From the NCBI RefSeq assembly GCF_028622115.1, contig NZ_CP097263.1, forward strand, positions 6,138,001 to 6,202,000: 64,000 bases of DNA. The letters run 5' to 3'. Both the position numbers and the translations under genes were made by a program. The notes beneath the pieces were generated by a model, which saw only the letters and a program-made list of their open reading frames with translations, was not told where the DNA came from and ran no database searches. Shown here one piece after another: positions 4,151 through 35,045 of this stretch. Every line of letters begins with the position of its first letter. The stretch's first letter is position 1. The DNA comes from Kutzneria chonburiensis (GTDB lineage: Bacteria > Actinomycetota > Actinomycetes > Mycobacteriales > Pseudonocardiaceae).

Positions 4151-4258
4151 CCGACCGCTCACGTTTCCACTCCCGGCAATCGCCGATGACGTGACCGCGG
4201 TCACGCTCCTAGCGTCGCCCTCAGCTCGTCAGGAACTCACCTGCTGAGGGGACATGAC

Positions 4259-4750: not shown

Positions 4751-4798
4751 GCCACCTGTCCGGGGACCGCGAGCCCCCGCCGGGGTCCCCACCGATAG

Positions 4799-4841: not shown

Positions 4842-4851
4842 ACTGCATCGA

Positions 4852-6927: not shown

Positions 6928-7259
6928 ACATGTCCTTCCTGACCGGTCCGAGCCTCCTACTTGGACCAGCTGCGCCGTCCCGAACGACTGAACGGCGCGG
7001 GCGCCCGTGAGCGGGCGGAAAGCCGCGAACACGGGACTTGTCGGTCACCACAGCGGCCGGGTATCCCGCCAGACGTCGAGGACCGACATTCCGATCGGGA
7101 GATGCGTACCGGGACGAGTGCCCGGGCACGACACCGGCGCCCGTGCGCTCGGTGACTGATCTACCCTGAGGGTAGACGGCAGGCCCGCATGGTGCAACAA
7201 CCGGCCCCCGGCGTGGCGCTGATGGCGTCAACACCCCCCACCTGCGTTTTGTTCCAGAA
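6928..7259 (-). promoter_or_regulatory. Promoter/leader region of rho
   Basis: These 332 bases between thrB and rho hold no convincing gene. A 17-base perfect palindrome, TCTACCCTGAGGGTAGA at 7160-7176, stands about 230 bases before the rho start and could be an operator or a short hairpin in the leader. The ribosome binding site of rho is within 6930-6942. No intrinsic terminator is obvious behind thrB, so read-through from the threonine genes into rho is possible. Confidence 0.4.
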
Positions 7260-17355: not shown

Positions 17356-18774
17356 GTGGCTTCGGGCACGTACAACGGGCAGGCGGCGGGCCTCGAACGG
17401 CGGATCGGGCCGTGGCAGGCGACCGCCATCAACATGACGCAGATGTGTGGCATCGGGCCGTTCCTCACGATCCCGCTCATGGTGGCGGCGATGAACGGTC
17501 CGCAGGCCATGCTCGGCTGGGTCATCGGCGCGATCATCGTGCTGGCCGACGGCCTGATCTGGGCCGAGCTCGGCGCGGCCATGCCGGGCGCCGGCGGCAC
17601 GTACATCTACCTGCGGGAGGCGTTCCAGTACCGGACCGGGCGGCTGATGCCGTTCCTGTTCGTGTGGACCGCGGTGCTGTTCATCCCGCTGATCATGTCC
17701 ACCGGCGTGATCGGACTCGTGCAGTACCTCGGCGTGCTGTGGCCGGCGGTGGTGGACGACACCGGCGCCGTCAACACGCTCGGGCACGTGGTCGGCGTGG
17801 TCATCACCGGCCTGGTTGTCGTCCTGCTGTACCGCAAGATCGGCGACATCACCAAGGTCACCACGGCCTTCTTCGGGGTGATGCTGGTCAGCATCCTGGC
17901 CGTGATCATCGCCGCGTACAGCCACTTCAGCGCGGCGCTGGCCTTCGACTTCACGCCCGGCGCGTTCGCCGGCGGCGGCGCGTTCTGGACCGGCCTCGGC
18001 GCGGGCCTGATCATCGCCGTGTACGACTACCTGGGCTACAACACCAGCGCCTACCTCGGCGGCGAGGTCCGCGAGCCGGGCAAGACGCTGCCGCGGTCGA
18101 TCATCCTGTCCATCGTCGGCATCATGTGCCTGTACCTGCTGTTGCAGATCGGCATCCTCGGCGCCGTGCCGTGGCAGGACGTGGCCAAGTCCTCGTCGGT
18201 GGCCACCCTGGCGGTCAACACGTCGTGGGGCCCGGTGGCCGGCGACATCGTGACCGTGCTCATCGTGGTGACGGCGTTCGCGTCGGTGTTCGCGGGACTG
18301 CTCGGCGGCTCCCGGGTGCCTTACGAGGCCGCCCGCGACAAGCTGTTCCTGCCGGTGTTCGCCAAGCTGCACCCGAAGGGGCACTTCCCCACCGCGGGCC
18401 TGCTGGTGATGGGCGTGATCACCGCCGTCGCCTCGCTGTTCCCGCTCGGCGTCGTGATCAACGCGCTCACCGCCGTCATCGTGCTGGTGCAGTCGGTGGC
18501 GCAGATCGCCGCGCTCGTCGTGCTGCGTCGTCGCCAGCCCGGGTTGGTCCGCCCGTACAAGATGTGGCTGTTCCCGGTGCCGCTGGTCGTCGCGCTGGCC
18601 GGTTGGGTCTTCCTGTACTACTCGGTCGACACGCTGTCCCAGATCCTGTCGGTCGCCTGGGTGATCGTCGGTGTCGCCGCGTTCCTGATCTGGGCCCGGG
18701 CCGAGCAGGTCTGGCCGTTCGGGCCGAAGGAGATCAAGGAGGAGTACCTCACGACATCGACGTCAGCCGCGTGA
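17356..18774 (+). CDS. APC-superfamily amino acid permease
   Basis: Amino acid/polyamine/organocation transporter in the cytoplasmic membrane. The protein has about 12 hydrophobic segments over 472 residues. The first, INMTQMCGIGPFLTIPLMVA, carries the glycine-rich unwound helix typical of the APC fold, and ELGAAMPGAGGTYIYLREAF is the conserved second/third helix loop. The GTG at 17356 is chosen because AGGGAGG ends six bases before it; the GTG at 17350 overlaps that site. The substrate cannot be deduced. Its 3' end overlaps the convergent SsgA-like gene by 26 bases. Confidence 0.88.
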   Translation: MASGTYNGQAAGLERRIGPWQATAINMTQMCGIGPFLTIPLMVAAMNGPQAMLGWVIGAIIVLADGLIWAELGAAMPGAGGTYIYLREAFQYRTGRLMPFLFVWTAVLFIPLIMSTGVIGLVQYLGVLWPAVVDDTGAVNTLGHVVGVVITGLVVVLLYRKIGDITKVTTAFFGVMLVSILAVIIAAYSHFSAALAFDFTPGAFAGGGAFWTGLGAGLIIAVYDYLGYNTSAYLGGEVREPGKTLPRSIILSIVGIMCLYLLLQIGILGAVPWQDVAKSSSVATLAVNTSWGPVAGDIVTVLIVVTAFASVFAGLLGGSRVPYEAARDKLFLPVFAKLHPKGHFPTAGLLVMGVITAVASLFPLGVVINALTAVIVLVQSVAQIAALVVLRRRQPGLVRPYKMWLFPVPLVVALAGWVFLYYSVDTLSQILSVAWVIVGVAAFLIWARAEQVWPFGPKEIKEEYLTTSTSAA

Positions 18775-19171
18775 GCTCCGCGTCGATGTCCACCCACAGG
18801 TGCTCGTTGCCGGGCATGACGATCTCGTAGGTCTCGTCAAGGAATTCGGCGAGGTCCTCCGCCGGGGCCTCGAACACCGCCTGGCCCGACGGCGAGCGCA
18901 GCTCCACCACGACCATCTCCACGTCGCTGTCCGACGGCCTGATCCGGATGTCGCCCTCACCGGCGTCGCCGATCAGGCCGTCGGCCAGCAGGTCCCGGCT
19001 GAAGGCCCATTCCACGCAGTCCTCGCGGCCGGGGCGGAAGGCCGCCACCACCGCGTACGGATCCAGCGTGTCGTAGCGCAGCTCGACCTCAAGCGGCACC
19101 AGGAAGTCGTGCGCGGCCAGGAAGCCGAAGTCGACCCGCTCCGTGATCACCTTGCGGTCGTTGTTGCCCAT
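18749..19171 (-). CDS. SsgA-family sporulation/cell division regulator
   Basis: SsgA-like proteins are found in morphologically complex actinomycetes, where they guide FtsZ placement and peptidoglycan remodelling. The 140-residue protein shows the family pattern: VPLEVELRYDTLDPYAVVAAF, then VEWAFSRDLLADGL, then a GDIRIRPS stretch and the C-terminal LAEFLDETYEIVMPGNEHLW. The ATG at 19171 has AAGGGGA upstream; the frame reaches further but without a start signal. Whether this is the SsgB orthologue or another paralogue needs a tree. Confidence 0.88.
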   Translation of the reverse strand: MGNNDRKVITERVDFGFLAAHDFLVPLEVELRYDTLDPYAVVAAFRPGREDCVEWAFSRDLLADGLIGDAGEGDIRIRPSDSDVEMVVVELRSPSGQAVFEAPAEDLAEFLDETYEIVMPGNEHLWVDIDAELTRLTSMS

Positions 19172-19277
19172 CGTCCGTCCCCTTCGCTCTCTCACGTCAT
19201 CACCCGTGACAGAGGTGGGACGCAGCACCGGTGGGATACCCACGCGGTTTTCCCAGAAGACACCCGAACGGGTGCCG

Positions 19278-20180
19278 TCACCAAGTCAGGTCACGGCACT
19301 TCGAGGTCGCGTCCCGGGGTTCCACCTGCACCGTGGCGTGCTCCAGCCGGTAGTCCTCGGCCAGCAGTTTCTGGGCCCTGACCAGCACATCCGCCGGTTC
19401 CGCCCCCGGGGCCACCGCGAGGTGCGCCGAGGCCACTTCCATGCCCGATGTGAGGGTCCACACATGCACGTCATGGGCCTCGGTCACGCCGTCAAGTGCC
19501 GTGAGATCAACACATAGCTGCTTGACGTCCACCCGTTCGGGCGCGTGCTGGAAGAGGATGCGCAGTGCCTTCTTGGCCAGGCCCCAGGTGCGGGGCAGGA
19601 CGAACAGCCCGATGGCGACGGCGATGACCGGGTCCGCGTAGCGCCAGCCGGTGGTGAGCGTGATCAGACCGCTGATCAGGACGCCCATCGAGCCGATGAG
19701 GTCCGACAGCACTTCCAGGTAGGCGCCGCGGAGGTTCAGGCTCTCCTTCGCACCGTCCTTCAGCAGCATGAAGGCCGTCGCGTTGATCGCGATCCCGATC
19801 ACCGCCGTGATCGTCACCGGCAGTCCCGGCACCGCCGGCGGCGCCGCGAAGCGTTCGATCGCCTCGTACAGCACGTAGCCCGCCACCGCGAACAGCAGCA
19901 CCGCGTTCGCCAGGGCCGCCAGCACTTCCGCCCGGTACATGCCGAACGTGCGTTCCTGCTTCTGGTTCTTCCTCGCCGCCAGGATCACCGCCGCCAGCGC
20001 CAGGCCGATCCCCACCACGTCCGTGAGCATGTGCGCCGCATCCGAGATCAGCGCCAGCGAGCCCGTAGTGATCCCGATCGCCGTCTCGATGGTCAGGAAC
20101 CCCGCCCCCAGGCCGAGCGCCGCCCACAGCCGGCCCACGTGTTGCCCCGAGGCGCTGCCGTGCCCGTGTCCGTGCCCCAT
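19278..20180 (-). CDS. Cation diffusion facilitator (zinc/cobalt/cadmium-type exporter)
   Basis: CDF proteins export divalent metal in exchange for protons. The N-terminus is His-rich (MGHGHGHG). There are six transmembrane segments; TM2 carries the metal site DAAHMLTD (H and D four apart), and the TM5 counterpart reads YLEVLSD, with Glu where many CzcD-like proteins have His. The C-terminal cytoplasmic domain (DGVTEAHDVHVWTLTSGME) has the conserved His residues of the family. At 300 aa the length is normal. It follows the alpha/beta hydrolase gene by 71 bases; that gap is AT-richer than average and probably holds its promoter. The metal is inferred to be zinc-like. Confidence 0.9.
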   Translation of the reverse strand: MGHGHGHGSASGQHVGRLWAALGLGAGFLTIETAIGITTGSLALISDAAHMLTDVVGIGLALAAVILAARKNQKQERTFGMYRAEVLAALANAVLLFAVAGYVLYEAIERFAAPPAVPGLPVTITAVIGIAINATAFMLLKDGAKESLNLRGAYLEVLSDLIGSMGVLISGLITLTTGWRYADPVIAVAIGLFVLPRTWGLAKKALRILFQHAPERVDVKQLCVDLTALDGVTEAHDVHVWTLTSGMEVASAHLAVAPGAEPADVLVRAQKLLAEDYRLEHATVQVEPRDATSKCRDLTW

Positions 20181-20251
20181 CGCCCGTTCCTTCCGTGTCC
20201 CCAGTCCCCCTCAACATATAGCGACATGCGCATAAGCTCAATGAGTGCAGC

Positions 20252-20980
20252 CTAACTTTTTCTCGTCAGCTCCTTGATCCAGCTGGCCAGGATGTGTGGC
20301 TGCTCCTTGATCACCCAGTGCCCCGCCGGCAGCGTCTTGACCGTCAGATCGTCACACCACGGCTCCGCTGCCTTAGCCATCGCCGGCGTCACGAACCGAT
20401 CTTTCGTCGGCACGACCAGCAGCGTCTTCGTGGTGATCCGTTGGGCTTGGTGGCTTCTGCCAATGTTCGCCCGGTACAGCTCAAGCCCCGCTCGCGGGAA
20501 GATCAGATCCGGCAGCTTCGGGATCTTGAACGCCGCCATGTACCAGGACCGGGCCAGCTGGTTCACCGTCTCCTTGCTGGGGAAGTTCTTCTCGTACCAG
20601 TAGCTCGCGTGCCCCAGATCCGGCCCCGAGATCGCCGTGAACGTGTCGAAGGGGTGGTCGACCACCGCCCTCCATCCCTGCACCGCGCCCCAGTCATGCC
20701 CCACCAGATGCTTCGCCCTCGTGGCCTCCGCCACACGTCTCAGATCATCCTTCAGCCGCTCGATCCCGTACCCCTCCGTGGTCGTCGGCCCCTCCGACCC
20801 ACCCATCCCCCGGACGTCGTACCTCACCACCCTGAAGCTGTCTTTGAGCTCCTTGACCAGCGGCTCCCACACCTCCGCCGTATCCGGAAACCCGTGCACC
20901 AGCAGCACCCTCGGCCCTTTGGGGTCCCCGTCCTCGTACACCCTCAGCCGCAGCCCGTCCTCCGTGATCACGTCCGCCAT
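20252..20980 (-). CDS. Alpha/beta hydrolase, epoxide-hydrolase-like
   Basis: Single-domain alpha/beta hydrolase. The oxyanion motif is LLVHGFPDTAEVWEP and the nucleophile elbow is LVGHDWGAVQG, with Asp at the nucleophile position as in epoxide hydrolases and dehalogenases rather than Ser. The catalytic His is in LPAGHWVIKEQP near the C-terminus. The ATG at 20980 gives 242 residues; the frame is open further upstream, but that part runs across the tRNA gene and is not real. The substrate is unknown. Confidence 0.85.
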   Translation of the reverse strand: MADVITEDGLRLRVYEDGDPKGPRVLLVHGFPDTAEVWEPLVKELKDSFRVVRYDVRGMGGSEGPTTTEGYGIERLKDDLRRVAEATRAKHLVGHDWGAVQGWRAVVDHPFDTFTAISGPDLGHASYWYEKNFPSKETVNQLARSWYMAAFKIPKLPDLIFPRAGLELYRANIGRSHQAQRITTKTLLVVPTKDRFVTPAMAKAAEPWCDDLTVKTLPAGHWVIKEQPHILASWIKELTRKS

Positions 20981-21049
20981 GCCCCCAGACGGTAGGCCCT
21001 GCAAAACCCCTCCACCCCGTGTTGTAAGCTTCTCCTCGTTGAGCAACGG

Positions 21050-21121
21050 GCCCCCGTAGCTCAGGGGATAGAGCACCGCCCTCCGGAGGCGGGTGCGCAG
21101 GTTCGAATCCTGCCGGGGGCA
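21050..21121 (+). tRNA. tRNA-Arg (anticodon CCG)
   Basis: The cloverleaf can be drawn completely: acceptor GCCCCCG (21050-21056) pairs with CGGGGGC before the discriminator A at 21121. The D arm has GCTC/GAGC, the anticodon stem CCGCC/GGCGG encloses CTCCGGA with anticodon CCG, and the T arm is GCAGG TTCGAAT CCTGC. CCA is not encoded. This gene directly borders the defence island and is a plausible integration site. Confidence 0.97.
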
Positions 21122-21131
21122 CGCGATCGTA

Positions 21132-21168
21132 CGAGAGCCCTGTCTGGCTTCGCCAGACAGGGCTCTCG
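21132..21168 (+). terminator. Rho-independent terminator of tRNA-Arg
   Basis: A perfect 17-bp stem (21132-21148 with 21152-21168, CGAGAGCCCTGTCTGGC) with a TTC loop is followed by CGTTTGTGTTTT, a T-rich tail. It begins 10 bases beyond the tRNA end. Confidence 0.9.
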
Positions 21169-21179
21169 CGTTTGTGTTT

Positions 21180-21244
21180 TCTGGGGCTCTCGCCCCAGAC
21201 CCCAAGCCAGGAGGGCTCCGCCCCTGGACCCCCGATTCGGGGGT
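21180..21244. repeat. Cluster of short palindromes behind the tRNA
   Basis: Three small inverted repeats follow one another: TCTGGGGCTCTCGCCCCAGA at 21180-21199, an imperfect CCAGG/CCTGG hairpin at about 21208-21228, and ACCCCCGATTCGGGGGT at 21228-21244. Their role is unknown. They mark the junction between the tRNA and the island. Confidence 0.5.
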
Positions 21245-21377
21245 AGCGTCCGGGTTTGTGTCGGCGGAGGTCGCTGGTCCTGGCAAAGTTTCTGTCACCG
21301 GATTGGTGGTTCTGGTTGACGGCGAGCGCTGGATGTACATCGATGGGGTCACAGCGTGGAGAGGCTGGGGGCTTGGG

Positions 21378-21977
21378 GTGAGCAAGATCCATGTTCGGCC
21401 AGAGCTTCTGCGGCAGACGGGCGGAAAGGTCAGCGGGTTTGGCGGGAAGCCAGCTGAAGGCGGGCAGAAGCTGGAGTCGGCGGGACAGAGCCTGGTCTCA
21501 AATACCGGGCGGCAACCGGTCCGGCATCGGCGCGATGGTGGCCAAGCTGTTCGGGCGCGGCGTACAGATCACGGGCAAGGCGTTCAGCAAGGGCGGGCTG
21601 GTCGGCGAAGGCTCCGGCAAGCAGCTGCACACGTCAGCCGATCTCTACGAGGATGCGGACGGCAAGAGTGCCGGACTGCTGAAGAAGCTGCACCCAGACA
21701 TCAAGGGCAAGGCAGATCCACCGGGCGGTGGAGCGCAGACGGGCACACGGGTTGGGATAGGTGGCAGACGACAGCCCCGTACAGCACGGCGACATGTAGG
21801 TGGGAACGCCAGATCGCACACGGTTCCGCCCACGAGGCGCACGACGACCAAAGACCCGGTAGATCTGGCTACTGGGGAGGTGCTGCTGACCCAGACCAAC
21901 CTCACGCTATCCGCGTTCGTCCTCTTGTGCCGGCGAGGACCCACGTGCCGTCGTATCGGGTGGGCCGGCCGTTCTGA
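21378..21977 (+). pseudogene. Frameshifted N-terminal remnant of an Rhs-type polymorphic toxin
   Basis: Pieces of one protein can be followed across two frames. From the GTG at 21378 the frame reads VSKIHVRPELLRQTGGKVSG, a WXG100-like start. Near 21500-21520 homology moves to the next frame: GIGAMVAKLFGRGVQITGKA, then SADLYEDADGKSAGLLKKLH and DPVDLATGEVLLTQTNLTL, the last being the signature before the DUF6531/Rhs repeat region. Near 21910-21930 it returns to the first frame as RTHVPSYRVGRPF, then a stop. The YD-repeat core and toxin tip are absent. This is therefore a decayed remnant, and the toxin it carried is unknown. The assignment rests on remembered family patterns. Confidence 0.7.
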
Positions 21978-22122
21978 CGTTCATGGGCGTCCCTCCAGGC
22001 AGCGATCGTCAGCACTGTCCATCTGCTGCCGCGATAGCCACCTGCACCTCGCGAGTCTACTAACCGATTTGCCGCACGTGTACGCATGCGACACTAACTG
22101 GACCGTAAGGAGGTCTACATTG

Positions 22123-23172
22123 ATGAACCAACGTCGCCATACTACACAGACCGTCGCCTGGTTCCTCGATCTCTATCGACGAGAACTTCTCATCCTCGAT
22201 CCGCCCTACCAGCGCAGGAGTGTCTGGAACCAATCCTACGCAGATTACTTCATAGACACAATGCTGCTAAACTACCCCGCTCCGGCGATCTTCTTGTATG
22301 AAGACATAAGCGACAGCGGAAAAGCAACCTATTCCGTAGTGGACGGCAGACAACGCCTAACCACCGTTCTCAGGTTTGTAGAGGATGAATTCCCGGTCGG
22401 CGATTCGGCCTCCACGCACGGTTTTCGTGGGAAATTCTTCAAAGACCTCCCCTCTGACATCAGGAAAGATTTCTACAGATATCAATTCTCGATCGAATAT
22501 CTTCCGTCAACCGACGAAGGAACACTCAGCAATATATTCGATCGAATAAACAGAAACGTGGCGAAACTAACGCCCCAGGAACTTCGACACGCTAGATTCT
22601 CCGGCGAGTTTGCCACTTCAGCCGAGCGCCTTAGCGAATTCATGACGAGGCAGCTTGACGAAAACTTTCCTAGAGTTAACCAAGCGGCTCGCCGACAGAT
22701 GAAAGACGTGGAGCTTGCCGTCAACCTAATGCTACTGGTTGAGAGCGGAATAGCCTCATACTCCCAGGCGGAGCTCGACAAGGCTTACAGCGATCGCGAG
22801 GACAACTGGGAAGAAGCCTCGCGCGTAGATACGGAATTTCGGCAGACTATCGCAACCCTCCGCGACTGGCAGAATGAACTACTAGTTGGCGACGCTGCCC
22901 GATTCCGCAATCAGGCAGATTTCTATTCCCTTTTCGCAATCATCCTTGAGCTGCATCGTGAACAACAGGTCCCCCAGAAGGATGACTCGGTAAAACGTCT
23001 ACGGGAATTTATGGCGATCGTACTAGACGACAAACGCAGGTCATCCGACGAAAACGCGGCAAAGTACTACGAAGCCACCAGGTCTGCATCAAGCGACCAA
23101 GCACCTCGCCGCGATCGGGTAAGGATCCTCCGCCAAGTGCTCCTCAGGGAATCCAATGTCAGCAAGTCCTGA
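22123..23172 (+). CDS. DUF262 protein (GmrSD N-terminal-like), candidate defence protein
   Basis: DUF262 is the ParB-like NTP-dependent domain found in GmrSD restriction enzymes and other defence proteins. The 349-residue protein has PPYQRRSVW (residues 27-35) and VVDGRQRLTTVLRF (72-85), the two core motifs, followed by ENIFDRINRN-like text (NIFDRINRNVAKLT) typical of the family. There is no C-terminal HNH (DUF1524) domain, so it is a short form. A perfect TAAGGAGGT ribosome binding site nine bases before the ATG fixes the start; the frame is open far upstream into the Rhs remnant only by chance. The codons are clearly richer in A/T than the neighbouring genes, a sign of transfer. Its last 17 bases overlap the RelA/SpoT-fold gene, so the two proteins are made together. 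Confidence 0.85.
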   Translation: MNQRRHTTQTVAWFLDLYRRELLILDPPYQRRSVWNQSYADYFIDTMLLNYPAPAIFLYEDISDSGKATYSVVDGRQRLTTVLRFVEDEFPVGDSASTHGFRGKFFKDLPSDIRKDFYRYQFSIEYLPSTDEGTLSNIFDRINRNVAKLTPQELRHARFSGEFATSAERLSEFMTRQLDENFPRVNQAARRQMKDVELAVNLMLLVESGIASYSQAELDKAYSDREDNWEEASRVDTEFRQTIATLRDWQNELLVGDAARFRNQADFYSLFAIILELHREQQVPQKDDSVKRLREFMAIVLDDKRRSSDENAAKYYEATRSASSDQAPRRDRVRILRQVLLRESNVSKS

Positions 23173-24181
23173 GTCTGTCCGTAAGGCATTCGAGGATTCC
23201 CGCCCGCTGGTCGGCAGTGTAAGATCCTACGTCGGATCTACGCTACGATCATTTTGCGATGGCGAATTCCTTTTTGCCGACAGGGTAAAGACCCTTGGAT
23301 CGGTCAGCGAGAAGCTAGAAAGCGGTCGATTTGGCCACTGGAGCGACTTGGACGATCTATACGCGTGCACCATCGTTGTACCAGTCGCCACATTTGAGTC
23401 AAAGGTACTCAACTTCCTTCGCTCAGCTTTTTCAGAGGTACGCTCCCGCGGCCGCACAGACACGCGCAAAGCGCCCGATACTTTTCGCTTCGACGGACTT
23501 CGATGGTACGGGAAAGTTACCCCTGAGGCCGCAGAAAAGATGCCAATCGGCGCTTCACTTCTAGTATTTGAGGTTCAAATTCTCACAGCGTTCGAATACG
23601 CCTGGTCGCGAGTCACCCATTCCCTTGTCTACAAGTCAGATGATGTAGACTGGAAACGGCAGCGACTTGCAGCACAGCTGAAAGCTGCCGTCGAACAGAT
23701 TGAAATGATTATCGCCAGCTTCGACGCATCATCATCAGCTGTCCAAGAGTCCCCCTGGCCCGAAAACGAGTTAAAGCAGAAAATAATATCCAAATTCCAG
23801 CAGTGGGTCCTCGACAAAAAGATTCCAGATTCGATCGCGCCCGACAGCTGGAGCCGATTTGCAGATAATGTACATGGCCTGCTGCGCCAGGTCGAGCGAG
23901 AAGAAGGTCGCCGAGCAGACGCACTGAGTTCTCTGCTGGAGTGCATCGAAGGTGAGCTTCAGAATGAGTCTGAAATCCACGTCCCAGTTTCCGGAACTTT
24001 GTTTCAGTACGTCCTAGGCGTACTATCCAGGACCGGATCGCTCAAGAAGATAAAGAAAGGATACTTCGTCCCATCGGTAGAACTTCGCGATCTACATGGC
24101 ATACTCGACCTTCCGCGCGAATTTCAGTTCGACACCATCTCAGCAAATGAAGAGGCCCTGAAGGAATCGATGCCGGAATAG
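23156..24181 (+). CDS. RelA/SpoT-fold nucleotidyltransferase-like protein, partner of the DUF262 protein
   Basis: Residues 40-160 show the synthetase-fold pattern of small alarmone synthetases: RVKTLGSVSEKL (43-54), DLDDLYACTIVV (64-75), an EVQI motif (139-142) and THSLVYK (154-160). The usual GYRS-H loop is replaced by FDGLRWYGKV (112-121), so substrate choice or activity may differ. The stretch 160-215 is helical. The C-terminal 130 residues contain a small domain (TLFQYVLGVLSRTGSLKKIK) that I cannot name. At 341 aa it is longer than a bare alarmone synthetase. It overlaps the DUF262 gene by 17 bases and shares its low GC content. The role is unknown; a toxic effector or sensor function in defence is inference. 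Confidence 0.75.
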   Translation: MSASPESVRKAFEDSRPLVGSVRSYVGSTLRSFCDGEFLFADRVKTLGSVSEKLESGRFGHWSDLDDLYACTIVVPVATFESKVLNFLRSAFSEVRSRGRTDTRKAPDTFRFDGLRWYGKVTPEAAEKMPIGASLLVFEVQILTAFEYAWSRVTHSLVYKSDDVDWKRQRLAAQLKAAVEQIEMIIASFDASSSAVQESPWPENELKQKIISKFQQWVLDKKIPDSIAPDSWSRFADNVHGLLRQVEREEGRRADALSSLLECIEGELQNESEIHVPVSGTLFQYVLGVLSRTGSLKKIKKGYFVPSVELRDLHGILDLPREFQFDTISANEEALKESMPE

Positions 24182-24255
24182 GAGCGCAACACAATAGGAA
24201 GGTCAAGCAACGAGGACGCAGTGCCTGCAGCAGACCCACTGGCCGACCGCAAGAA

Positions 24256-24292
24256 TGCCAGATGACAATCTTGAGCAGGTTGTCATCTGGCA
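24256..24292. terminator. Bidirectional hairpin between convergent genes
   Basis: TGCCAGATGACAA at 24256-24268 pairs perfectly with TTGTCATCTGGCA at 24280-24292 around an 11-base loop. It separates the RelA/SpoT-fold gene (plus) from the restriction endonuclease gene (minus), so it ends both transcripts. Confidence 0.75.
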
Positions 24293-24301
24293 GTATGTCG
24301 C

Positions 24302-25054
24302 TCAGAAGGGCAGCATTCCCGCACCTGCACCGGGAATTCCCAAGTCCTTAAGATAGGTCAGCCGCCCATTGATCGCTGCGGAAAAATGCCTCCAATCGAG
24401 GCTTTCAACCGGCTCGATGGGTCGAGGATCAGCCGGGGATGAAGTGATGTAGCAGACCGCATCATAGAGGCCTTCCGCAACCAGCCGTTCGCAGAATGTG
24501 CCGAATCGCTGCTGATAGGACTTACCCTCCCAAATTCTGTCAGCCGAAATAGCAGCCTTTTTCGCCGTCCCCACAGGGGACGTCGACCCCTTGGCGTCCT
24601 CCATAATAAAGAAGTAGCCCAACCACGGCCGTTCGCCCGGAAATAGGTCTTCCAGCGCAGCGCGACGAATATCAATGGCGCTACCCAGCGCCTCCTCAAC
24701 CCGATTATTGTAGTTGTTACCGAACGAGGGACCTCCCAAGGCTTTGAGCTCAAACGCGGCAACAAGTGTCCCATCGTGGACGACCACCACGTCCCATTGT
24801 TTCTGCGGGCGATAGTAGCCGGGCAACTCCAGCCCTTGGATTCGAGCGACTCTGATCGAGCTGGACGGATAGCCCGCATCCAAAAAGAATTTAGCGATCA
24901 ACGCAGTGATCTTATCGAAGTGCTTACCGGCACGAACAGAGCCGGCAGTGCCGGAACCGACCTTATTCTTGATCTCAGACAACTCACTTTGAGTCTTTTT
25001 GGCGCCCCAGTATGCAGCGACAGCTTCTTCGAAGTCTTGGCGGCTAACCGTCAA
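24302..25054 (-). CDS. PaeR7I/XhoI-like type II restriction endonuclease
   Basis: Members of this family cut CTCGAG. The PD-(D/E)xK core is visible: D88 in QWDVVVVHDG, then E102 and K104 in AAFELKALGG, followed by the highly characteristic GPSFGNNYNNRVEEALGSA (108-126). The 250 residues match the size of PaeR7I. The start is a TTG at 25054, 12 bases after the methyltransferase stop with GGGGGACC between; no better start exists. It is coded behind the methyltransferase on the same strand, so methylation is made first. The recognition sequence is inferred from the family. Confidence 0.85.
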   Translation of the reverse strand: MTVSRQDFEEAVAAYWGAKKTQSELSEIKNKVGSGTAGSVRAGKHFDKITALIAKFFLDAGYPSSSIRVARIQGLELPGYYRPQKQWDVVVVHDGTLVAAFELKALGGPSFGNNYNNRVEEALGSAIDIRRAALEDLFPGERPWLGYFFIMEDAKGSTSPVGTAKKAAISADRIWEGKSYQQRFGTFCERLVAEGLYDAVCYITSSPADPRPIEPVESLDWRHFSAAINGRLTYLKDLGIPGAGAGMLPF

Positions 25055-25066
25055 AGGTCCCCCATG

Positions 25067-26749
25067 TCAGTCCGGAAGTTCAACAAGCCCGTAAGCCTTC
25101 AGCGCGGCCGTCGTAGCCGCTTGCACATCACGCCGATCGAATGCCTCCGCCAACGCAATACGAACGTCGTCCCTGATCGCCGCCGGGTCGGGCACACGAA
25201 TCTTGCGCAAGTACTGAGCTTGAAATCGGAGTGTGCCACCTCGCATCTTCACAGCATACGCTGATACAAAAGCCTCAGCGACCTTCGACAAGAGAAGGCC
25301 ACCAAGCACCCGCATATCCCATTTATCCGAAGTGATGTAATATAGATTGTGGTGCGGATAAAACCCGCCGGGGTCGAGGACCGGATGGATGGCAAGCTTC
25401 ATGTCTGGGAACAAAAGTTTCGGGCGTGCAGTGAGCCGATGATCGACTTTGTCGATAGTCTTGTACCAATTATCGGGTTGTTTAGTAGCCACGTAACGCT
25501 TACGCAGCGCCGCAGCATGGCGATTGAAGTACTGCGCCAGTCGCGGGTAGACATCAAGGTCAACCAATTTTCCTTGCGCGTCCCACGGGTTTACCAGGTG
25601 GGTCCCGTTCCAGTCGAGCTCGCCACTAGTAGTGTCGCGAACCATCGCTAGCGGCAGGAGCCGGTCTTCCTCTACATCCGCAGCATCACTGCGATGAGTA
25701 ATGAAGACGCTGTCCGCGCCGGTTGCAACCCCGATGCCAACCCGCGTGCCGGTGGACACATCCTCTAGTAGTTGGCAACGGTCACTGAGGTCTTCAAGCA
25801 CCGCCAACCGCGCTGGTGACGCCGCCGGCCACGAGTCGTCGCCGGGGAACCAATGCGGCAGCCGAGCCGCATGATATGCCGGTTTGTCGACGCGAGCTTG
25901 GCCCACCTTCGACGTCCAGGCGACGAACTCCTTGGCCTGTTGAGCATCGAACCGCCCTGTGGCGTCAGCAGCAATGGCCGAACCTTGTACAGCATTACTT
26001 ATAACGGTAATGGCCGGGTATGCAGATACCTGCTCCTGGAACGCGTCGACGTCATGCATCGTCAACACAAGGTCCACACTAAAACGCCGAGTCACCATGC
26101 CACGAAGATTACGACCGTATTGGTTACGCATCCACCGATCGGCACAGATGAACCCGAGCCGGCCGCCAGGCTTAAGGCTACGCAGGGCTACTTCGTAGAA
26201 GCCGACGTAGATGTCGGCCCGTCCACCCATAGTCGAACAGGAAGATCGATAAGCATTCATGCGAATATCCGGCACGTCCTCCAGCCGGATATAGGGCGGG
26301 TTGCCAACTACGAAGTCTGCGAGATGAACGCTCGACTCTTGCAGCAGATAGTCGCCTTGTCCGATCCAGGAATTAACGACCTTTTCGACGTCGGTTGACT
26401 CGAACCCATCGGCGAGCAACTGTTGCCCGACCAGGTCTCGGCTTGCCTGGACATTGCGATCCAGCAAGTCGTAGGCCTCGATTGCTTGGACGGCATCCAA
26501 CAAAGATCGTCCGTGCTTACGACACGACGCGCTCAAGCGTTCGACTACCGGACCCAGAAAAGCCCCGCCACCACATGCCGGCTCCACGATGACCGCGTCA
26601 GCAAGGTCCTGATCGGCCGTGTAGCCGACCAGGTCGAGGATCGTCTCCACAACCCAACGCCTGGTAAACACCTCGCCGTGCTGGACGGCCTGTTGCAACG
26701 ACTCCGGCAAGACCAGTGCGTCCAGGCCGAACAGCTCACGAGTTGCCAC
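25067..26749 (-). CDS. N6-adenine DNA methyltransferase of the PaeR7I/Eco57I type
   Basis: This protein methylates adenine to protect host DNA against the adjacent endonuclease. The AdoMet motif is EPACGGGAFL (56-65) and the catalytic motif is NPPYIRLEDVP (150-160), the NPPY form of gamma-class adenine methylases. The C-terminal 250 residues form a target recognition region ending in GGTLRFQAQYLRKIRVP, as in Eco57I/PaeR7I-like enzymes. The length of 560 aa is appropriate. It starts with GTG at 26749. The divergent space 26750-26981 must carry promoters for this operon and for the Wadjet genes. Confidence 0.88.
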   Translation of the reverse strand: MATRELFGLDALVLPESLQQAVQHGEVFTRRWVVETILDLVGYTADQDLADAVIVEPACGGGAFLGPVVERLSASCRKHGRSLLDAVQAIEAYDLLDRNVQASRDLVGQQLLADGFESTDVEKVVNSWIGQGDYLLQESSVHLADFVVGNPPYIRLEDVPDIRMNAYRSSCSTMGGRADIYVGFYEVALRSLKPGGRLGFICADRWMRNQYGRNLRGMVTRRFSVDLVLTMHDVDAFQEQVSAYPAITVISNAVQGSAIAADATGRFDAQQAKEFVAWTSKVGQARVDKPAYHAARLPHWFPGDDSWPAASPARLAVLEDLSDRCQLLEDVSTGTRVGIGVATGADSVFITHRSDAADVEEDRLLPLAMVRDTTSGELDWNGTHLVNPWDAQGKLVDLDVYPRLAQYFNRHAAALRKRYVATKQPDNWYKTIDKVDHRLTARPKLLFPDMKLAIHPVLDPGGFYPHHNLYYITSDKWDMRVLGGLLLSKVAEAFVSAYAVKMRGGTLRFQAQYLRKIRVPDPAAIRDDVRIALAEAFDRRDVQAATTAALKAYGLVELPD

Positions 26750-26981
26750 GGTCAGACTCTAGCGCCACGTGCCCGTGTAACCGCCGACTCCCGGTACGAC
26801 GCAACATCCTGTCGGGCCGTCATGTCTTCAGACTTGCAGGTCGCTTCCAGATTGCCAGCGACGACATCGTTGGTGCACACGACGGTGACGGTTGGTTGTC
26901 GACCAACCCGGCAGGCTACAAGTGTTGTAACCACCGGTGGCCAGCCCTGTTCCGCGGCACGTCACGAACTACTGTCGGAGC

Positions 26982-28199
26982 GTGGCTACCGGTCAGCGAG
27001 GTCGTGCGGAGAAGCTCTCCCCTGTGCTGCGGCCGGTGTGGCGGGCGGCGCACGAGAGGCTGTCCTCGGGGCAGCCGGTGAGCAGGATCCGGCTGGGGCC
27101 GCTGATGGAGGAGCAGCGGGCGGCGCTGGCGGATCTGCTGGGGCTGGATCGGCTGCCGCCGGAGACGGTGACGGTGAGCGTGGCCAGGCTGGACGAGGTG
27201 CTGATCGAGGCGGTTGGTCTGCCGCTGAGAGACGTCGTGGCCGAGCTGGTGGGACCGATCGGCAATCGGGCGCAGGAGCGGGAAGCCCAGGGGAAAGAGC
27301 GGGCTGACCTGTGGGTATGGCTCAAGCGCAGTGACGTGGTAGTGGGTCAGCCGGCGCTGAACGACTGGGTGGAAGCGGTGCGGCGGGGCGGTCTCGTGGA
27401 GGGGTCGACGGAGCGCACGAAGAAGCTGCTGGAAGGAACGCTGGACGTCCTGGCGGAGTTGCCGGCGGCGGGGGTGCCGCTGCCGGTGCTGGCGCAGAAG
27501 ACGCTGCACGACCCGCACGGGCTGGATGAGGGGACGCGGCAAGGGGCGCTGGTACTGAAAGCGCTGGCGGCGATCTACGACGTGCCGGTGCCGACGGATG
27601 TGCAGCAGAAGAGGGGGCTGTGGGAGCGGGCGGGGGTGGCGGACGACGAGTTGTCGTCGGTGGTGCTCGTGGCGGGGATGAGGCCCGAAGGTGAGGGCGT
27701 TGCGAGCAAGGTGCTGAGGGCCTGTACGGGCCACGCGGCGGCGCTGACGCTGGGGCAGCTGAGGGCGACAAACTGGGGAAATGGCCTGCCGGAAACGGTG
27801 TGGGTGGTGGAGAACCCGAGCATCCTGGCGCTGGCGCTCGAGAGGTTCAAGGAGAGCTGCCCGCCGCTGGTGTGCACGTCGGGATGGCCGAACAGCGCGG
27901 GGATCCTGCTGCTGAGCGGGCTGGCGGAAGCAGGCTGTGAGCTGCGGTATCACGGGGACTTCGACGGCGAAGGGATCCGGATCGCGGCGAATGTGATGGC
28001 CAGGACGGGCGCGGTGCCGTGGCGGATGGGGGCGGCGGACTACCTGAAAGCGGTGGGCACGGTCGGGCCTAGTGTGGGCAGGGTGACGGAAGCGCCCTGG
28101 GATGGGCAGCTGGCCGAGGTGATGCGGGAGCACGGCATCACGGTGAGCGAGGAGCGGGTGGCGGACGAACTGCTGGCAGAGCTGCACTCGAACGAGTGA
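26982..28199 (+). CDS. jetD: Wadjet type II nuclease subunit JetD (DUF2399/TIGR02679)
   Basis: JetD is the Toprim-type nuclease of Wadjet, which cleaves plasmid DNA after the SMC complex has extruded it. The C-terminal half has the acidic Toprim pattern: E277 in WVVENPSILAL and D326/D328 in LRYHGDFDGEGIRIAAN. The first 200 residues are helical and contain the dimer/arm region. From the GTG at 26982 the protein has 405 aa; an ATG at 26937 would add 15 residues and neither has a strong ribosome binding site. It is the first gene of the cluster, 30 bases before jetA. Family knowledge supplies the mechanism; the sequence shows the motif. Confidence 0.85.
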   Translation: MATGQRGRAEKLSPVLRPVWRAAHERLSSGQPVSRIRLGPLMEEQRAALADLLGLDRLPPETVTVSVARLDEVLIEAVGLPLRDVVAELVGPIGNRAQEREAQGKERADLWVWLKRSDVVVGQPALNDWVEAVRRGGLVEGSTERTKKLLEGTLDVLAELPAAGVPLPVLAQKTLHDPHGLDEGTRQGALVLKALAAIYDVPVPTDVQQKRGLWERAGVADDELSSVVLVAGMRPEGEGVASKVLRACTGHAAALTLGQLRATNWGNGLPETVWVVENPSILALALERFKESCPPLVCTSGWPNSAGILLLSGLAEAGCELRYHGDFDGEGIRIAANVMARTGAVPWRMGAADYLKAVGTVGPSVGRVTEAPWDGQLAEVMREHGITVSEERVADELLAELHSNE

Positions 28200-29792: not shown

Positions 29793-31024
29793 GCAACCTG
29801 TCCAACCAGCTGGTGATCGCCGAACGCGACGAGGTGGCGCGGGGCATCCGACTTCTGCTCGCGACGCCGCTGATCCACGAACGTGGTGCGCCCGAGTCGT
29901 TCGATCTGGTGCGCCGTCGGCGCGACCCGATCAAGAAGTGGTTCGAGTACTACTGCGGCTGGTCCCTGGTCGTCGAACCGCGCCTTGGCTACGCCCGGCT
30001 GGCGAAAGTCAGGGCGATGGCGGACGCCAGCCGGCCGCCGCGCAGGCATCGATCCGGACGCGCGCCGTTCGACCGGCGGCGCTACGTTCTGCTCTGCGTG
30101 GCGGGGGCCGAGTTGCTGGCCGCACCGGTGACGACCATCGGCCTGCTGGCCGACCGGGTCACCAGGGCCACCGCCACCGACGAGGTGCTGACGACGTTCG
30201 ACGCGTCGGCTCGCGGGGAGCGGATGGCTTTCGTCGACGTGCTCAGGATGTTCGAGTCGCTTGGCGTCGTCGAGGTGGTGGACGGCGCAACGGAGTCCTA
30301 TGTGGACTCCGCTGAGGCGAAGGTGTTGTATCGGGTCGATGCGGCGCTGCTCATGCGGCTGCTGGCCACCACGACCGGCGTCTCGCAGCTGGCCGTGCCG
30401 ATCGACGAGGTGCCGACGCGGCTGGACGAGCTGTTGGCGGCTGTGTCACGAGAACGGCGTTATGGCGTCGTCGGCACGACGCCGGTCTCTGACGTGCAGC
30501 GGAATCTGTGGCTGCGGCATTCCGTCTTCCGGCGGCTGGTCGACGACCCCGTTGTCTACCTTGATGATCTGACCGACGACGAACGCGCGTACCTCAACTC
30601 GCCGACCGGGCGGCAGTTGGTGCGGCGGGCAGCCGGCGAAAGCGGCTTCCTCCTCGAAGAACGGGCCGAGGGCATGCTGCTCGTCGATCCGGACGGGATC
30701 GCCACCGACAGCCGCTTTCCCGACGACAGCAGCAATGCCAAGGTGGCGGCGCTGCTGCTGTTGGACAGCATGGACATGGCCGTCACCATCGAACAACTCC
30801 GGCTGACGGCCAGCGCGTTGCTGACAAGATTTCCCTCCTGGGCCAAGGCGTATCGCGGCGACAACGGCCCCGCCGAACTCGTCACCGATGCGCTGGCTGT
30901 GCTGCGCGGATTCGGCCTGGTCCGAATTGGCGACGGCGTGGTGCATCCGCTGCCGGCGGCGGCGCGATACGCCGTGAGCGGGGCACGCAGTGCTGATCAG
31001 GACAACGCGGAGGCGCAGCGATGA
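29789..31024 (+). CDS. jetB: Wadjet type II subunit JetB (DUF2398/TIGR02678, KITE)
   Basis: JetB is the KITE subunit, a winged-helix dimer that binds the kleisin. The 411-residue protein contains FDLVRRRRDPIKKWFEYYCG and LVVEPRLGYARLAKV near the N-terminus, which is characteristic of TIGR02678. Later come VYLDDLTDDERAYLNSPTGR and a C-terminal winged helix (LAVLRGFGLVRIGDGVVHPL). The ATG lies inside the last codons of jetA and its stop overlaps the jetC ATG, so jetA, jetB and jetC form one tightly coupled run. The frame is open 570 bases further upstream, but that part is a shadow of jetA. Confidence 0.87.
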   Translation: MSNLSNQLVIAERDEVARGIRLLLATPLIHERGAPESFDLVRRRRDPIKKWFEYYCGWSLVVEPRLGYARLAKVRAMADASRPPRRHRSGRAPFDRRRYVLLCVAGAELLAAPVTTIGLLADRVTRATATDEVLTTFDASARGERMAFVDVLRMFESLGVVEVVDGATESYVDSAEAKVLYRVDAALLMRLLATTTGVSQLAVPIDEVPTRLDELLAAVSRERRYGVVGTTPVSDVQRNLWLRHSVFRRLVDDPVVYLDDLTDDERAYLNSPTGRQLVRRAAGESGFLLEERAEGMLLVDPDGIATDSRFPDDSSNAKVAALLLLDSMDMAVTIEQLRLTASALLTRFPSWAKAYRGDNGPAELVTDALAVLRGFGLVRIGDGVVHPLPAAARYAVSGARSADQDNAEAQR

Positions 31025-34000
31025 CGATCACCGAGCTGCCGTGGCGCGCGGCTGAGCCCCTTGAACGTGAGGCGCATCGCTGGGTCCCGACGCGAGCGGG
31101 CATTCTCAACGTCTGGCGTTATTACGACGAGGTTTTCGAGTTCCAGCGGGGCCGGCTGTTGTTGCGCGGGGAGAACGGCAGCGGCAAGTCGAAGGCGCTG
31201 GAGCTGTTGCTGCCGTACCTTTTCGACGCGAACCTGCGCGCCAACCGTTTGTCGACGTTCGGCACCAGCGAACGGACGATGCACTGGAACCTCATGGGTG
31301 ACGGCGCATCGGGAACCACCCGGGTCGGCTACGTGTGGGTCGAGTTCCGCCAGGGCGACACGTGGTTCAGCTGCGGGGCACGACTCCAGGCAAGCAACCA
31401 CACGACGGCCGTACATGCCGACTACTTCACCACGACCCTGCGCGTCGGCGACGGGCTGGAGTTGGTGACCGACTCGGGCACACCGCTGACCAGAAACGCG
31501 CTCGAACAGGCACTCGGTGACCACGGCTTGTTGCACGGCAACGCGACCGAATACCGGTCGGCGATCCGCACGACGCTGTTTCCCGGGTTGAGCGAGCAGC
31601 GTTACGACGCGCTGATCACCGCGCTGTTGCAGCTGCGGACGCCGAAGTTGTCCCAGCGGCTCGACCCGTCACTGCTGTCCACACTGCTGTCACGGGCCCT
31701 GCCTCCGTTGGACCAGCAGGAGATCGCCGATCTCGCCGAGGGTTTCGAGCGACTGGACCGGCAGCGGGAACGTCTCACAGCCCTGGACGCGGAGGTCACG
31801 GCGGCCCGCACGCTCGGCGGCCGGCAGCGGACCTACGCGCAACGGGTGCTGCGGGCCGCGGCCGCCACGCTCATCTCGGCCACCACCGAGCTGGACAATC
31901 TCACCAAGTCCGCCCGGCGGTCGGCCGAGCAGCACGACCAGGTGGCCGAGCAGAAAGCCGAGACCGAAGCGCGGATCGAAACGCTTGTTGTCGACGAGGA
32001 GGAAACCCAGGCGCGGATCGCCGGGCTCGTCGAGAGCGACGCGTACCAGCACGGCCACGAACTCGACCAGCTACGGCAGCACACATCCGCGGCAGAATCC
32101 CGTGCTGTTGCCGCACGGTCGGACGCGGAAGCGAAGCGCCGGCAAGCTGTCAAGGATGCCGAGACTGCGGCGAACGCCGAGCGCGATGCCGAGCTGCGCG
32201 CTGGCACCGAGGCGGTCCGGGCGGCCGACGCCCGCCAGGCCGCGGCTCGGGCGGGGTTGATCGGCGTGCATGCTGAAGTCACCGAAACCCTGACCACAGC
32301 AGCCAAGCAGTCGCGGGTGCTGCTCCGCGCAGCCGTGCAAGGCCGGGCAAGGCAGATCGCCCTTGTCCGCGACGCGTTGGCCGAGCACGCAACGGCCGTG
32401 GACCGTCGGCAACAAGCGGAGACCGACCTCGAAGACGCGCGCTCCGATCTTTCCGCGGCTGAGGAAAGTCGCGCCGAGGCGGCCGAGAGGTGCGAACAGG
32501 CGCTGACCCGCCTCGTCGACGATCTTCGAGCCTGGGCGCGCGACTGCCGGGAACTCGCGTTTCCCGATCTCGACATGTTCGACGAGTTGGTCGAGAACGA
32601 GGCGGCCCTGCTCGAGCATGTCGATGCCGTGGCCGGCTCGGCGACCGACGTGCTGGTGCGGGCCGAATCGTCGACCGAGGCCGAGCAGGATGCCAAAAAG
32701 TCCGAACGGGACGGTCTCGCCGACGAGCTCGATGCCCTTGGGAAAAAGCAGGATCTGCCGCCGGAGGCACCGCCGACGCGGACCGCGGACCGCTCGACCA
32801 TGGCCGGGGCGCCGCTGTGGCGGTTGGTGCGTTTCGCCGACTCGGTGCCGGAGTCGACGCAGGCGTCGATCGAGGCCGCGTTGCAGTCGGCTGGCGTGCT
32901 CGATGCGTGGGTCGGCGCAGATGGCGCGGTGACCGGCCACGACGTCTTCGCGGTGGCCGAAGCCGTGCCACCGGCGGCCGGGCAGTCGTTGTCCGACGTG
33001 TTGATCCCAGAGAGGGATGCGGTCGTGCCGGCCAGCGTCGTGGCTCGGCTCCTCGCCGGCGTCGCATACGGTGACCGTGCGCCGGCCGGGCATCCGGCGG
33101 CGGTCGGGGCCGATGGCAGCTGGCGACTGGGCAATCTGGTCGGCAGCTGGCAAAAGCCGCATGCCGCGTACATCGGCGCGGTCGCGCGGGAACGGGCCAG
33201 GCAGCGGCGAATGGGCGAACTGCGGGCCCAGATCGATCAGCTCGACACCGAGCTCGGCGCACTGGCGTCACGGTTGCAGGCCATCCAGGCGCGGCGATCG
33301 GCTCTCGCCCGGGAGCGCGCGGCCCGCCCTCCGTACGGCGATGTGCGGGCGGCAAGGGATTCGCTGACCCGTAAGGAATCTGACGTCGAGTCGGCGAACC
33401 GCCACGTGCGCAAGCAGCTCGACACGCTGTCGAAACGCGAATCCGCGGTAAGCGCGTCACTACATGAGTTGACCGTCCTCGCGGCCGAGCACGGCATGCC
33501 GACCGATCGGGCCGCGCTAGACAACGTCGAACGTGCGGTGGAAGCGTTTCGGGATCAGGCGGAGATCTGGCTCGACAGCCACGACGAGCTCATGGCCGCC
33601 CGCCGTCAACGGGACACGGCGGCCGACTGGGCGGCCCGATCAGGCGCCGTCGCAGGCGAACGGGAGCACGACGCCGCCGAGGCCGAGGAGAACACCGCCG
33701 GCTCGCCGCGAAGCTGGAGACCGTCGAACGCACCGTCGGCGTCGAGTACCGGGAGGTTCTCGCCGAGCTGCGCGACCTGCGCATTCGGCGATCCGACCTG
33801 GCCAAGGGATTGGTGGCCGCGCGGGCAAAGGCATCCGACCTCGCCATCCGACTCGGCGAGCTGGGCGAGCGGCGCAAGTCCGACATCCAGGCCCGCGATG
33901 GGGCGCTGGTGGTGCGGGACAACGCTGCGCGTCGCTTCCGTCACCTCGCCGGCGGGACCCTGTCGGCCGACAGCGGTTTCCCGGATCTCAGTGGACTCGC

Positions 34001-35045
34001 CGCGACGCTCACAGCGTCCGACGGTGTCCGAGCGGCGCTCGACGCCGCCCGCTCGGTGGCGTCCACGTGGCCGAACGTGCCACACGAGCCGAACAATCTC
34101 GGCGACGCGCTGCACCGCCTCTCCGAGTCCGTGCACGAGTGCCGTACGGCGCTGAGCGCGCGGGCCGACCTCGACCTGGAGGCGGACGAGGACGTGCAGA
34201 TGTTCACCGCGCTCGTGGACGGCGTCCGGGTCGGCGCCGCCGAGCTGCTCGCCATCCTGCGGGCCGACGCCGAGCAGAGCCGGCAGGAGATCACCGAGCG
34301 GGAACGACAGCTGTTCGACCAGACCTTGACCGGCGATACCCGCCGGCACCTGGCCGCGCGCATCCGGCAGGCCGGTGAGCTGGTGGATGCGATGAACGAC
34401 CGGTTGGAACGCGTTCGGACGGCGTCCAAGGTCGCCGTGCGGCTCGTCTGGCAGGTCGCGCCGAACCTGCCAACCGGCACCAGGGCGGCACGGGACCTGC
34501 TGCTGAAGGACCCGGTCCGGCTGACGGAGTCGGACCGTGAATCTCTGCACCAGTTCTTCCGGGACCGCATCGAGCAGGCGAAGTCGAACGACACAGCCAC
34601 GAGCTGGGAGCAGCAGCTGGCGGAGGTGTTCGACTACACCGCGTGGCACCAGTTCGTGGTGAAGGTGGACCGCGCGAACGGCGAGGGCTGGCAGCTGCTC
34701 ACCCGGAAGCTGCACGGCGCGTTGTCCGGCGGCGAGAAGGCCATCGCGCTGCACCTGCCCCTGTTCGCAGCCGTCGCAGCCCACTATCAGGCCGTGCCCA
34801 CCGCGCCGCGCGTCATCCTGCTCGACGAGGTCTTCGTCGGGGTGGACAGCAGCAACCGAGGGCAGGTCTTCGCCCTGCTGTCCGCGCTGGACCTCGACCT
34901 CATGCTGACCTCGGACCACGAGTGGTGCACCTACGCGGAACTCGACGGCATCGCGATCCACCAGCTGCTCACCGGTGACGGCGACAACGCGGTCACCACG
35001 GCTCGCTTCGTGTGGAACGGCCGGGACCTGGTCCCGGATTCCTGA
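31021..35045 (+). pseudogene. jetC: Wadjet type II SMC subunit JetC (TIGR02680) with a one-base frameshift
   Basis: JetC is the SMC-like motor ATPase that extrudes DNA loops. Walker A is RGENGSGKSKALELL (residues 49-63). Long coiled coils with a hinge-like centre follow. The C-terminal head has the signature ALSGGEKAIALHLPLF and Walker B RVILLDEVFVGVD. The reading frame breaks near 33698-33705: the first frame runs to 34155 in out-of-frame text, while true coding resumes in the next frame as LAAKLETVERTVGVEYREV and runs to 35045. Adding one base restores 1341 residues, the expected family size. No slippery heptamer is visible. So it is either a real knock-out mutation or a sequencing error; the rest of the gene shows no decay. 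Confidence 0.85.

Follow-up and report, generated by a model that had tools for sequence, protein, structure and literature searches.

A DUF262 gene coupled to a divergent alarmone-synthetase-like gene recurs beside restriction-modification genes, suggesting a backup module of Type II systems

The analysed stretch of the Kutzneria chonburiensis genome (contig NZ_CP097263.1, positions 6,138,001 to 6,202,000; 64,000 nucleotides, hereafter the window) carries two coupled genes, encoding a DUF262 protein and a divergent protein resembling small alarmone synthetases (SAS). A preliminary description made from the sequence alone had presented them as two genes overlapping by 17 bases, with a strong ribosome binding site before the first only, and both points hold. 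The genes lie on one strand with a 17-nucleotide (nt) overlap. On the plus strand of the window, the sequence TAAGGAGG occurs only at 22106, ahead of gene 1, and the ribosome binding site of gene 2, read by eye, is a weak AGGGA alone. The elements of the pair are as follows:

22106..22113, plus strand: strong Shine-Dalgarno sequence of the pair (TAAGGAGG), found by sequence, single plus-strand copy in the window
22123..23172, plus strand: gene 1, DUF262/GmrSD_N protein, 349 amino acids (Pfam, 6e-20)
23156..24181, plus strand: gene 2, divergent SAS-like protein, 341 amino acids (Pfam RelA_SpoT, 5.2e-7)

Residues 18-159 of gene 1 match the Pfam family GmrSD_N/DUF262 (PF03235). The Pfam search revealed no HNH/DUF1524 domain in this protein, and no DUF1524 was found among the seven window proteins scanned, in agreement with its earlier designation as a DUF262 protein without the HNH domain. 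Its PADLOC matches are NsnA (2.5e-37) and PD-T4-2_A (4.5e-17), and NCBIfam gave no match. The DGxQR motif is intact (D74, G75, Q77 and R78). Indeed, the D, G, Q and R of the (I/V)DGxQR nucleotide motif are present in 8/8 DUF262 members aligned, the partial copies of two further loci (L012 and L057, see below) having been left out of this alignment. Passages of the literature describe SspE as a DUF262 NTPase that senses modified DNA and then activates a nuclease domain (PMC10952713), and NTPase and nuclease activity as possible for proteins of the ParB/Srx fold (PMC4619093).

Residues 43-162 of gene 2 match the Pfam family RelA_SpoT (PF04607) with 30.4 bits against a curated cut-off of 27, and no Pfam family was matched beyond about residue 165. 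A profile of the SAS family matches the GTP pyrophosphokinase 2be3 of the PDB (1.1e-4). The membership of the second protein in the RelA/SpoT synthetase family, proposed earlier, is thereby supported at the level of sequence. The NCBIfam match is weak (0.077), and PHROGs gave no match for the window SAS. On the SAS side, PADLOC yields PDC-S33 alone, a weak likeness over the synthetase core, with values of 3.6e-7 for L036, 3.3e-6 for L011, 1e-4 for L005 and 0.012 for the window; the SAS of L057 gave no match to it at 1e-4. To our knowledge, no function is known for this PADLOC candidate. The eight SAS proteins linked to DUF262 form one clade relative to eight outgroup SAS, with a support of 100/100. 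Within this clade, R43, K45, S49, D67, E139, Q141, H155, Y159 and K160 are invariant in 8/8 aligned members, and K53 is found in 7/8, with Arg in L056. FaRel2 was used as a guide to the residues, as described in passages of PMC11782079, and positions were matched by sequence alignment and spacing. The counterparts of its donor-phosphate and metal residues, R64, K66, S70, K74, D90, E145 and Q147, are kept in 8/8 members, except that of K74 (K53, in 7/8).

The preliminary description had left the conservation of the pair to a gene-neighbourhood search, and homology searches recovered it in distant bacteria: the host's phylum, a Planctomycete, Rhizobium plasmids and IMG/VR contigs. At 9/9 visible junctions the two genes lie on one strand, spaced from a 17-nt overlap to a 17-nt gap (the window, L005, L007, L008, L011, L012, L036, L056 and L057, with one gene interrupted in L008 and L012). 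The DUF262-SAS pair is a conserved unit.

These loci came from several collections. The scan of genome contigs with the SAS query returned a Planctomycetaceae pair locus (L005) and a remnant (L006). The plasmid search gave L007 from Rhizobium sp. 007, together with four further Rhizobium plasmid records that had identical match values and count as a single locus (L008). Two of these records were read, L008 (pTiK1_93) and L009 (pTi932), and their SAS gene is cut by an IS5. The five best matches of the plasmid search with the DUF262 query, among 781 records, were the same five Rhizobium records. IMG/VR contributed L011 and L012 and, from the DUF262 side, L018, whose contig ends 13 nt after DUF262; L018 is counted below for its upstream neighbour and not among the SAS junctions. 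Genome searches added G804 (L036), G1017 (L056), G1179 (L057) and G1592 (L093). With outgroup SAS matches excluded, family members amounted to 1/200, 1/392, 2/396, 2/201, 2/394, 1/35 and 2/198 per genome search, in genome sets that overlap between searches. Since a PF04607 search of the host's own genome returned a single match and missed the window gene, this first look is lossy and the rarity figures are lower bounds. Phage records held no match for query P0002 or for the SAS of L011, and the DUF262 of L005 matched 13 of them, all below 80% coverage. Scans of viral contigs with P0002, P0001, A10 and A11 confirmed no relative, and the scan with A4 returned only L011 and L012.

A restriction-modification (R-M) gene adjoins the pair in 9/9 loci that show a DUF262 gene of this group together with its upstream flank, and lies upstream on the same strand in 7/9. 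The neighbouring R-M operon, mentioned in the preliminary description as part of the surroundings, appears on comparison as a recurrent partner. The R-M partners are of at least three types, namely XhoI with an N6 methylase, BsuBI/PstI with an N6 methylase, and a 5-methylcytosine (m5C) methylase. The nine loci, with restriction endonucleases given as REase, are arranged as follows:

Window: DUF262, SAS, converging XhoI REase and methylase
L005: methylase fused to BsuBI/PstI REase, DUF262, SAS
L007: DUF262, SAS, converging N6 methylase
L008: methylase, BsuBI/PstI REase (both as annotated), DUF262, SAS pieces
L011: methylase, DUF262, SAS
L012: BsuBI/PstI catalytic domain, interrupted DUF262, SAS
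L018: methylase, DUF262, then the end of the contig
L036: m5C methylase, putative REase, divergent Vsr, DUF262, SAS
L056: m5C methylase, DUF262, SAS, putative REase

L012, whose DUF262 gene is broken by an insertion, was counted through its BsuBI/PstI catalytic domain. Between L036 and L056, identity is 49% for the putative REases and 66% for the methylases; as these REases match no Pfam or PADLOC family, they are so named from their position. L011 and L018 show no REase, with contig ends close by.

Two controls were set against this linkage. Around outgroup SAS genes, 0/8 loci carried a model named MTase or REase at 1e-6, on a scan of 89 of the 139 open reading frames (ORFs; at least 250 amino acids, within 6 kb), those omitted being the SAS genes and, for the most part, ORFs that were shorter or antisense. 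Other defence models were matched among the 89 ORFs, for instance mad3, mad8, AriA, SoFic, PDC-S48 and HEC-01A. Fisher's test gives p = 4e-5 for 9/9 versus 0/8, and 0.0013 for 9/12 versus 0/8, in which the loci without visible R-M (L006/L040, L057 and L093, excluded from the first count) are taken as misses. Around other DUF262 genes, an annotated DNA methylase was found in 1/12 plasmid loci, drawn from DUF262 match lists of 781 and 19 records, with hypothetical proteins mostly unscanned and an incomplete gene table. In the 10.4-Mb host genome, PF02384 has three N6_Mtase matches, one of them at this locus. R-M is the most consistent partner of the pair, and the association is strong.

Two regions seen near members of the family are recorded here in their own right. 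Downstream of the Planctomycete pair (L005, 9265-15267), an ImmA/IrrE-like gene, an AAA ATPase and a CD-NTase-like gene were recognized by eye, a possible locus of the type of cyclic-oligonucleotide-based antiphage signalling systems. On contig 49 of G1179 (L068, 2702-3997), a RloAB-like pair lies, by eye, near an XhoI-type methylase, with XhoI gene fragments only.

The other plasmid DUF262 genes also have neighbours of interest, a close downstream partner gene being present in 7/12 of these loci:

L076: HEPN protein, after a DNA methylase
L070, L079, L080: protein kinase downstream of DUF262
L071, L072, L075: unidentified proteins downstream of DUF262
L069, L073, L074, L077, L078: downstream partner less clear

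The HEPN protein and the kinases encoded after other DUF262 genes suggest interchangeable effectors. The L076 DUF262 is only distantly related: in the tree, its long branch falls outside all the others. On the 8.2-kb plasmid of Tabrizicola piscis that carries it, a DNA methylase, DUF262 and a HEPN gene follow each other (2367-6936) in a window-like layout with a different effector. In the kinase-linked loci, from one cyanobacterial and two Asticcacaulis plasmids, the DUF262 gene overlaps the kinase gene by 1-8 nt (L070 4935-7179, L079 4956-7098, L080 4986-7132).

In the window, the surroundings of the pair comprise the following elements:

21993..27000 (right edge approximate), no strand: low-GC block with the pair and the R-M system, delimited by the break in synteny with congener G003 and by GC in 200-bp steps
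24256..24292, no strand: hairpin in the gap where pair and R-M genes converge, possible two-way terminator (fold z = -4.67)
24302..25054, minus strand: XhoI-family Type II restriction endonuclease, converging on the pair (Pfam XhoI, 3.7e-45)
25067..26749, minus strand: N6-adenine DNA methyltransferase of the XhoI-type R-M system (Pfam Eco57I, 2.1e-17; PADLOC MTase_II, 2.2e-197)

Both genes of the pair have a GC content of about 52%, against 68.7% for the window. The drop, seen in 200-bp steps, extends over about 22.0-27.0 kb and takes in the XhoI-type REase (55.5%) and the methylase (58.1%), JetD being at 70%. The unusual composition noted earlier is thus real and not unique to the pair; low GC as a mark of the pair alone was dropped, since the R-M genes lie equally within the block. 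The hairpin, formerly assigned to the pair itself, has a 16-pair stem in its best fold. The terminator scan accepted no T-run in it and reported 0 terminator-like sites, and as it stands between two converging genes, it perhaps serves either unit.

Over 17807 to 21992, the window is matched at 82.8% by congener G003 (L090), which diverges beyond, so the variable segment begins about 130 bp before gene 1. The match of congener G002 (L089) extends to 21706, then covers the tail of JetC only (34696-35034) and starts again from 43003; between its matched parts G002 carries other genes, including, by eye, a methylase and an HsdS-like gene. A tRNA-Arg gene (21050-21122) lies beside the variable segment. 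From this comparison of sequences, the pair and the R-M system look like a single acquired block beside tRNA-Arg. The tRNA-flanked Rhs remnant of the preliminary description stands in so far as a variable segment does adjoin a tRNA gene, and needs correction in that the stretch called Rhs remnant is a conserved flank. Its ORF (21391-21992) is kept in two congeners at the tRNA-Arg site and is longer in G002 (336 amino acids); it looks like a local gene shortened here, and not like a part of the mobile block. The Wadjet genes (JetD, JetA, JetB and JetC) start at 26937, after the R-M system. JetC is split over two overlapping frames (31021-34155 and 33810-35045), which cover positions 9-909 and 949-1351 of the PADLOC JetC2 profile, and this Wadjet SMC gene looks frameshifted.

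We consider it slightly better than an even chance that the pair is an accessory module of Type II R-M systems, with DUF262 as an NTP-binding DNA sensor or switch and the SAS as an effector freed when R-M fails. What can be seen directly in the sequences are the family memberships, the DGxQR motif, the donor-phosphate and metal residues of the SAS, the coupling of the genes and the recurrent linkage to R-M of several types. The adjacency to R-M genes, the varied partners of related DUF262 genes and the precedent of PrrC-PrrI together point to a backup module. According to passages of PMC3710099, PrrC is a translation-stopping effector that is encoded with an R-M system, kept silent by PrrI and released when R-M is beaten; the same logic is proposed for the pair. 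As with PrrC, the presumed effector gene lies recurrently beside R-M, in 9/9 or 9/12 loci against 0/8 for outgroup SAS. PrrC, however, is an ABC-HEPN tRNA anticodon nuclease tied to a Type Ic system, whereas in the present case DUF262 and the SAS are two proteins and accompany Type II systems; neither the HEPN anticodon nuclease nor the ABC ATPase of PrrC is found in the pair, whose domains are DUF262 and RelA_SpoT. A second parallel comes from the MAE_28990-type HEPN genes, which share operons with genes for ParB and a DNA methylase (PMC3710099, Anantharaman 2013). There, too, a methylase, a ParB-fold protein and an effector come together, and Tabrizicola L076 has a DUF262 version of this arrangement; the effector, though, is HEPN and not a synthetase, and the L076 DUF262 is only distantly related to that of the pair.

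In a resting cell, DUF262, perhaps together with R-M subunits, would keep the SAS silent. The trigger would be a breach of R-M protection, which might come from phage anti-restriction, from DNA that is unmodified or carries a different modification, or from lost methylation. DUF262 would then shift its nucleotide state and free the SAS, which could move pyrophosphate onto a 3'-OH, most likely that of a tRNA or a purine nucleotide, and so halt growth before the phage completes. R-M would be the first line and the SAS the backup, according to the PrrC-PrrI logic with a synthetase replacing the anticodon nuclease. It is also conceivable, though probably not the case, that DUF262 is a general DNA-modification switch connecting R-M to interchangeable killers (alarmone synthetase, HEPN protein or kinase), and that the SAS, through its altered donor and acceptor positions, makes a product unlike that of any described RelA/SpoT enzyme. 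On this view, the pair might even replace the REase in L011 and L018, whose contigs end near, unmethylated DNA being answered by shutdown and not by cleavage.

Several observations weigh against a backup module of R-M. In the window and in L007 the R-M genes converge on the pair and do not share an operon with it. By eye, no R-M gene is present on the visible downstream side of L057 and L093, the upstream side being cut by the contig end, nor is DUF262 or R-M seen around the SAS remnant L006/L040, which has lost its N-terminal half and lies on a 5.7-kb contig. G1179, the source of L057, has a methylase homologous to that of the window (66% identity); it lies on a different contig, beside XhoI-like gene fragments. 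In the DUF262 tree, the SAS-linked copies do not form one clade (3 changes, bootstrap 2-4, 10/500 shuffles as low). DUF262/GmrSD genes are, according to passages of PMC4619093, generally enriched near R-M genes, so that linkage alone is no proof of a functional tie. Finally, the substrate pocket of the SAS is altered at two positions. That of FaRel2 R95, which stacks on the donor adenine, is Thr72 in 8/8 members, and that of Y128, which stacks on the acceptor, is Phe112 in 6/8, with Tyr in L036 and L056; a Phe mutant of Y128 is impaired in FaRel2 (PMC11782079, in part). The substrate is perhaps unusual, or the enzyme weak. On balance, we read the SAS as a probably active but divergent pyrophosphotransferase, to which no acceptor is assigned, and which may use a different substrate or have weak activity. 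The likeness to toxSAS (FaRel2, PhRel2, CapRel and FaRel) drawn in the preliminary description is accordingly partial. The family match and the donor-phosphate and metal residues are shared, whereas the adenine-stacking Arg and, mostly, the acceptor-stacking Tyr are lacking, and the DUF262 partner and the R-M context set the window family apart. A plain toxSAS was ruled out on the two substrate positions.

Other explanations of the pair have to be weighed against a backup module. It could be a type II toxin-antitoxin or addiction module that stabilizes the R-M block and its mobile carrier, DUF262 being simply the antitoxin. Such a module would fit two close-set genes in fixed order, some of them on plasmids and IMG/VR contigs, and toxSAS are indeed encoded beside immunity or antitoxin proteins (passages of PMC12691689). 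Yet the NTP motif of DUF262, kept in 8/8 members, would be needless in a plain antitoxin, and a steady R-M partner is not expected for a generic toxin-antitoxin pair; we regard this explanation as rather unlikely. The same altered donor and acceptor positions that speak for an unusual nucleotide product would agree with reversed roles, in which a phosphorylated nucleotide made by the SAS would be the signal and DUF262, as the effector, would respond to it. A nucleotide pocket is present in DUF262, and proteins of the ParB/Srx fold can have NTPase and nuclease activity (PMC4619093, in part). Some other DUF262 genes, however, lie ahead of a HEPN or kinase gene, in keeping with DUF262 as the switch; we hold the reversal to be decidedly unlikely.

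If Thr in 8/8 and Phe in 6/8 at the two substrate positions are instead taken as signs of decay, the SAS could be a pseudo-enzyme acting as a nucleic-acid-binding adaptor, with DUF262 doing the work, for instance by modification-dependent nicking. The invariance of R43, K45, S49, D67, E139, Q141, H155, Y159 and K160 in 8/8 members is hard to reconcile with a dead enzyme, and we hold this to be very improbable. The site varies between congeners and the window contains other defence genes, so the two genes might also be chance neighbours in a defence hotspot, without joint function. The junction kept at 9/9 loci in distant bacteria and the single clade of DUF262-linked SAS leave this a negligible likelihood, and it was rejected on recurrence.

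The pair also differs from the described DUF262 systems. With GmrSD, BrxU and SspE it shares DUF262, which in those systems is an NTPase tied to the sensing of DNA modification and to the control of an effector (passages of PMC10952713), but there the effector is a DUF1524 HNH domain, of which the pair has none; a GmrSD Type IV restriction enzyme was rejected on the same ground. Gene 1 resembles NsnA of Menshen and PD-T4-2_A, at the values given above. In Menshen, however, the DUF262 gene is paired with a predicted OLD nuclease (PMC10952713, in part). Neither NsnB nor NsnC had a match among the seven window proteins scanned, and membership in Menshen was rejected on the absence of these partners.

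No system joining DUF262 to RelA/SpoT is described among the PMC-library matches listed, subscription literature being outside this scope, and the terms "DUF262", "SpoT" and "alarmone" are absent from the main text of the surveys PMC12839542 and PMC10853773. Within these matches, the earlier statement that no described system joins the two stands. Coupling of restriction to translation shutdown is detailed for PrrC-PrrI and predicted for many HEPN genes. Suicide effectors linked to R-M are a kind already known, of which DUF262-SAS would be a new version.

If the backup reading is true, an alarmone-type synthetase would join such effectors, with DUF262 as the part that couples it to several Type II systems. 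The pair would offer a route to what DUF262 reads and to how R-M systems raise the alarm when phages win, and the altered active site of the SAS makes it a candidate for new RelA/SpoT chemistry. Should DUF262 prove the general switch considered above, one sensor of DNA state would tie several types of R-M to nucleotide- or tRNA-based shutdown.

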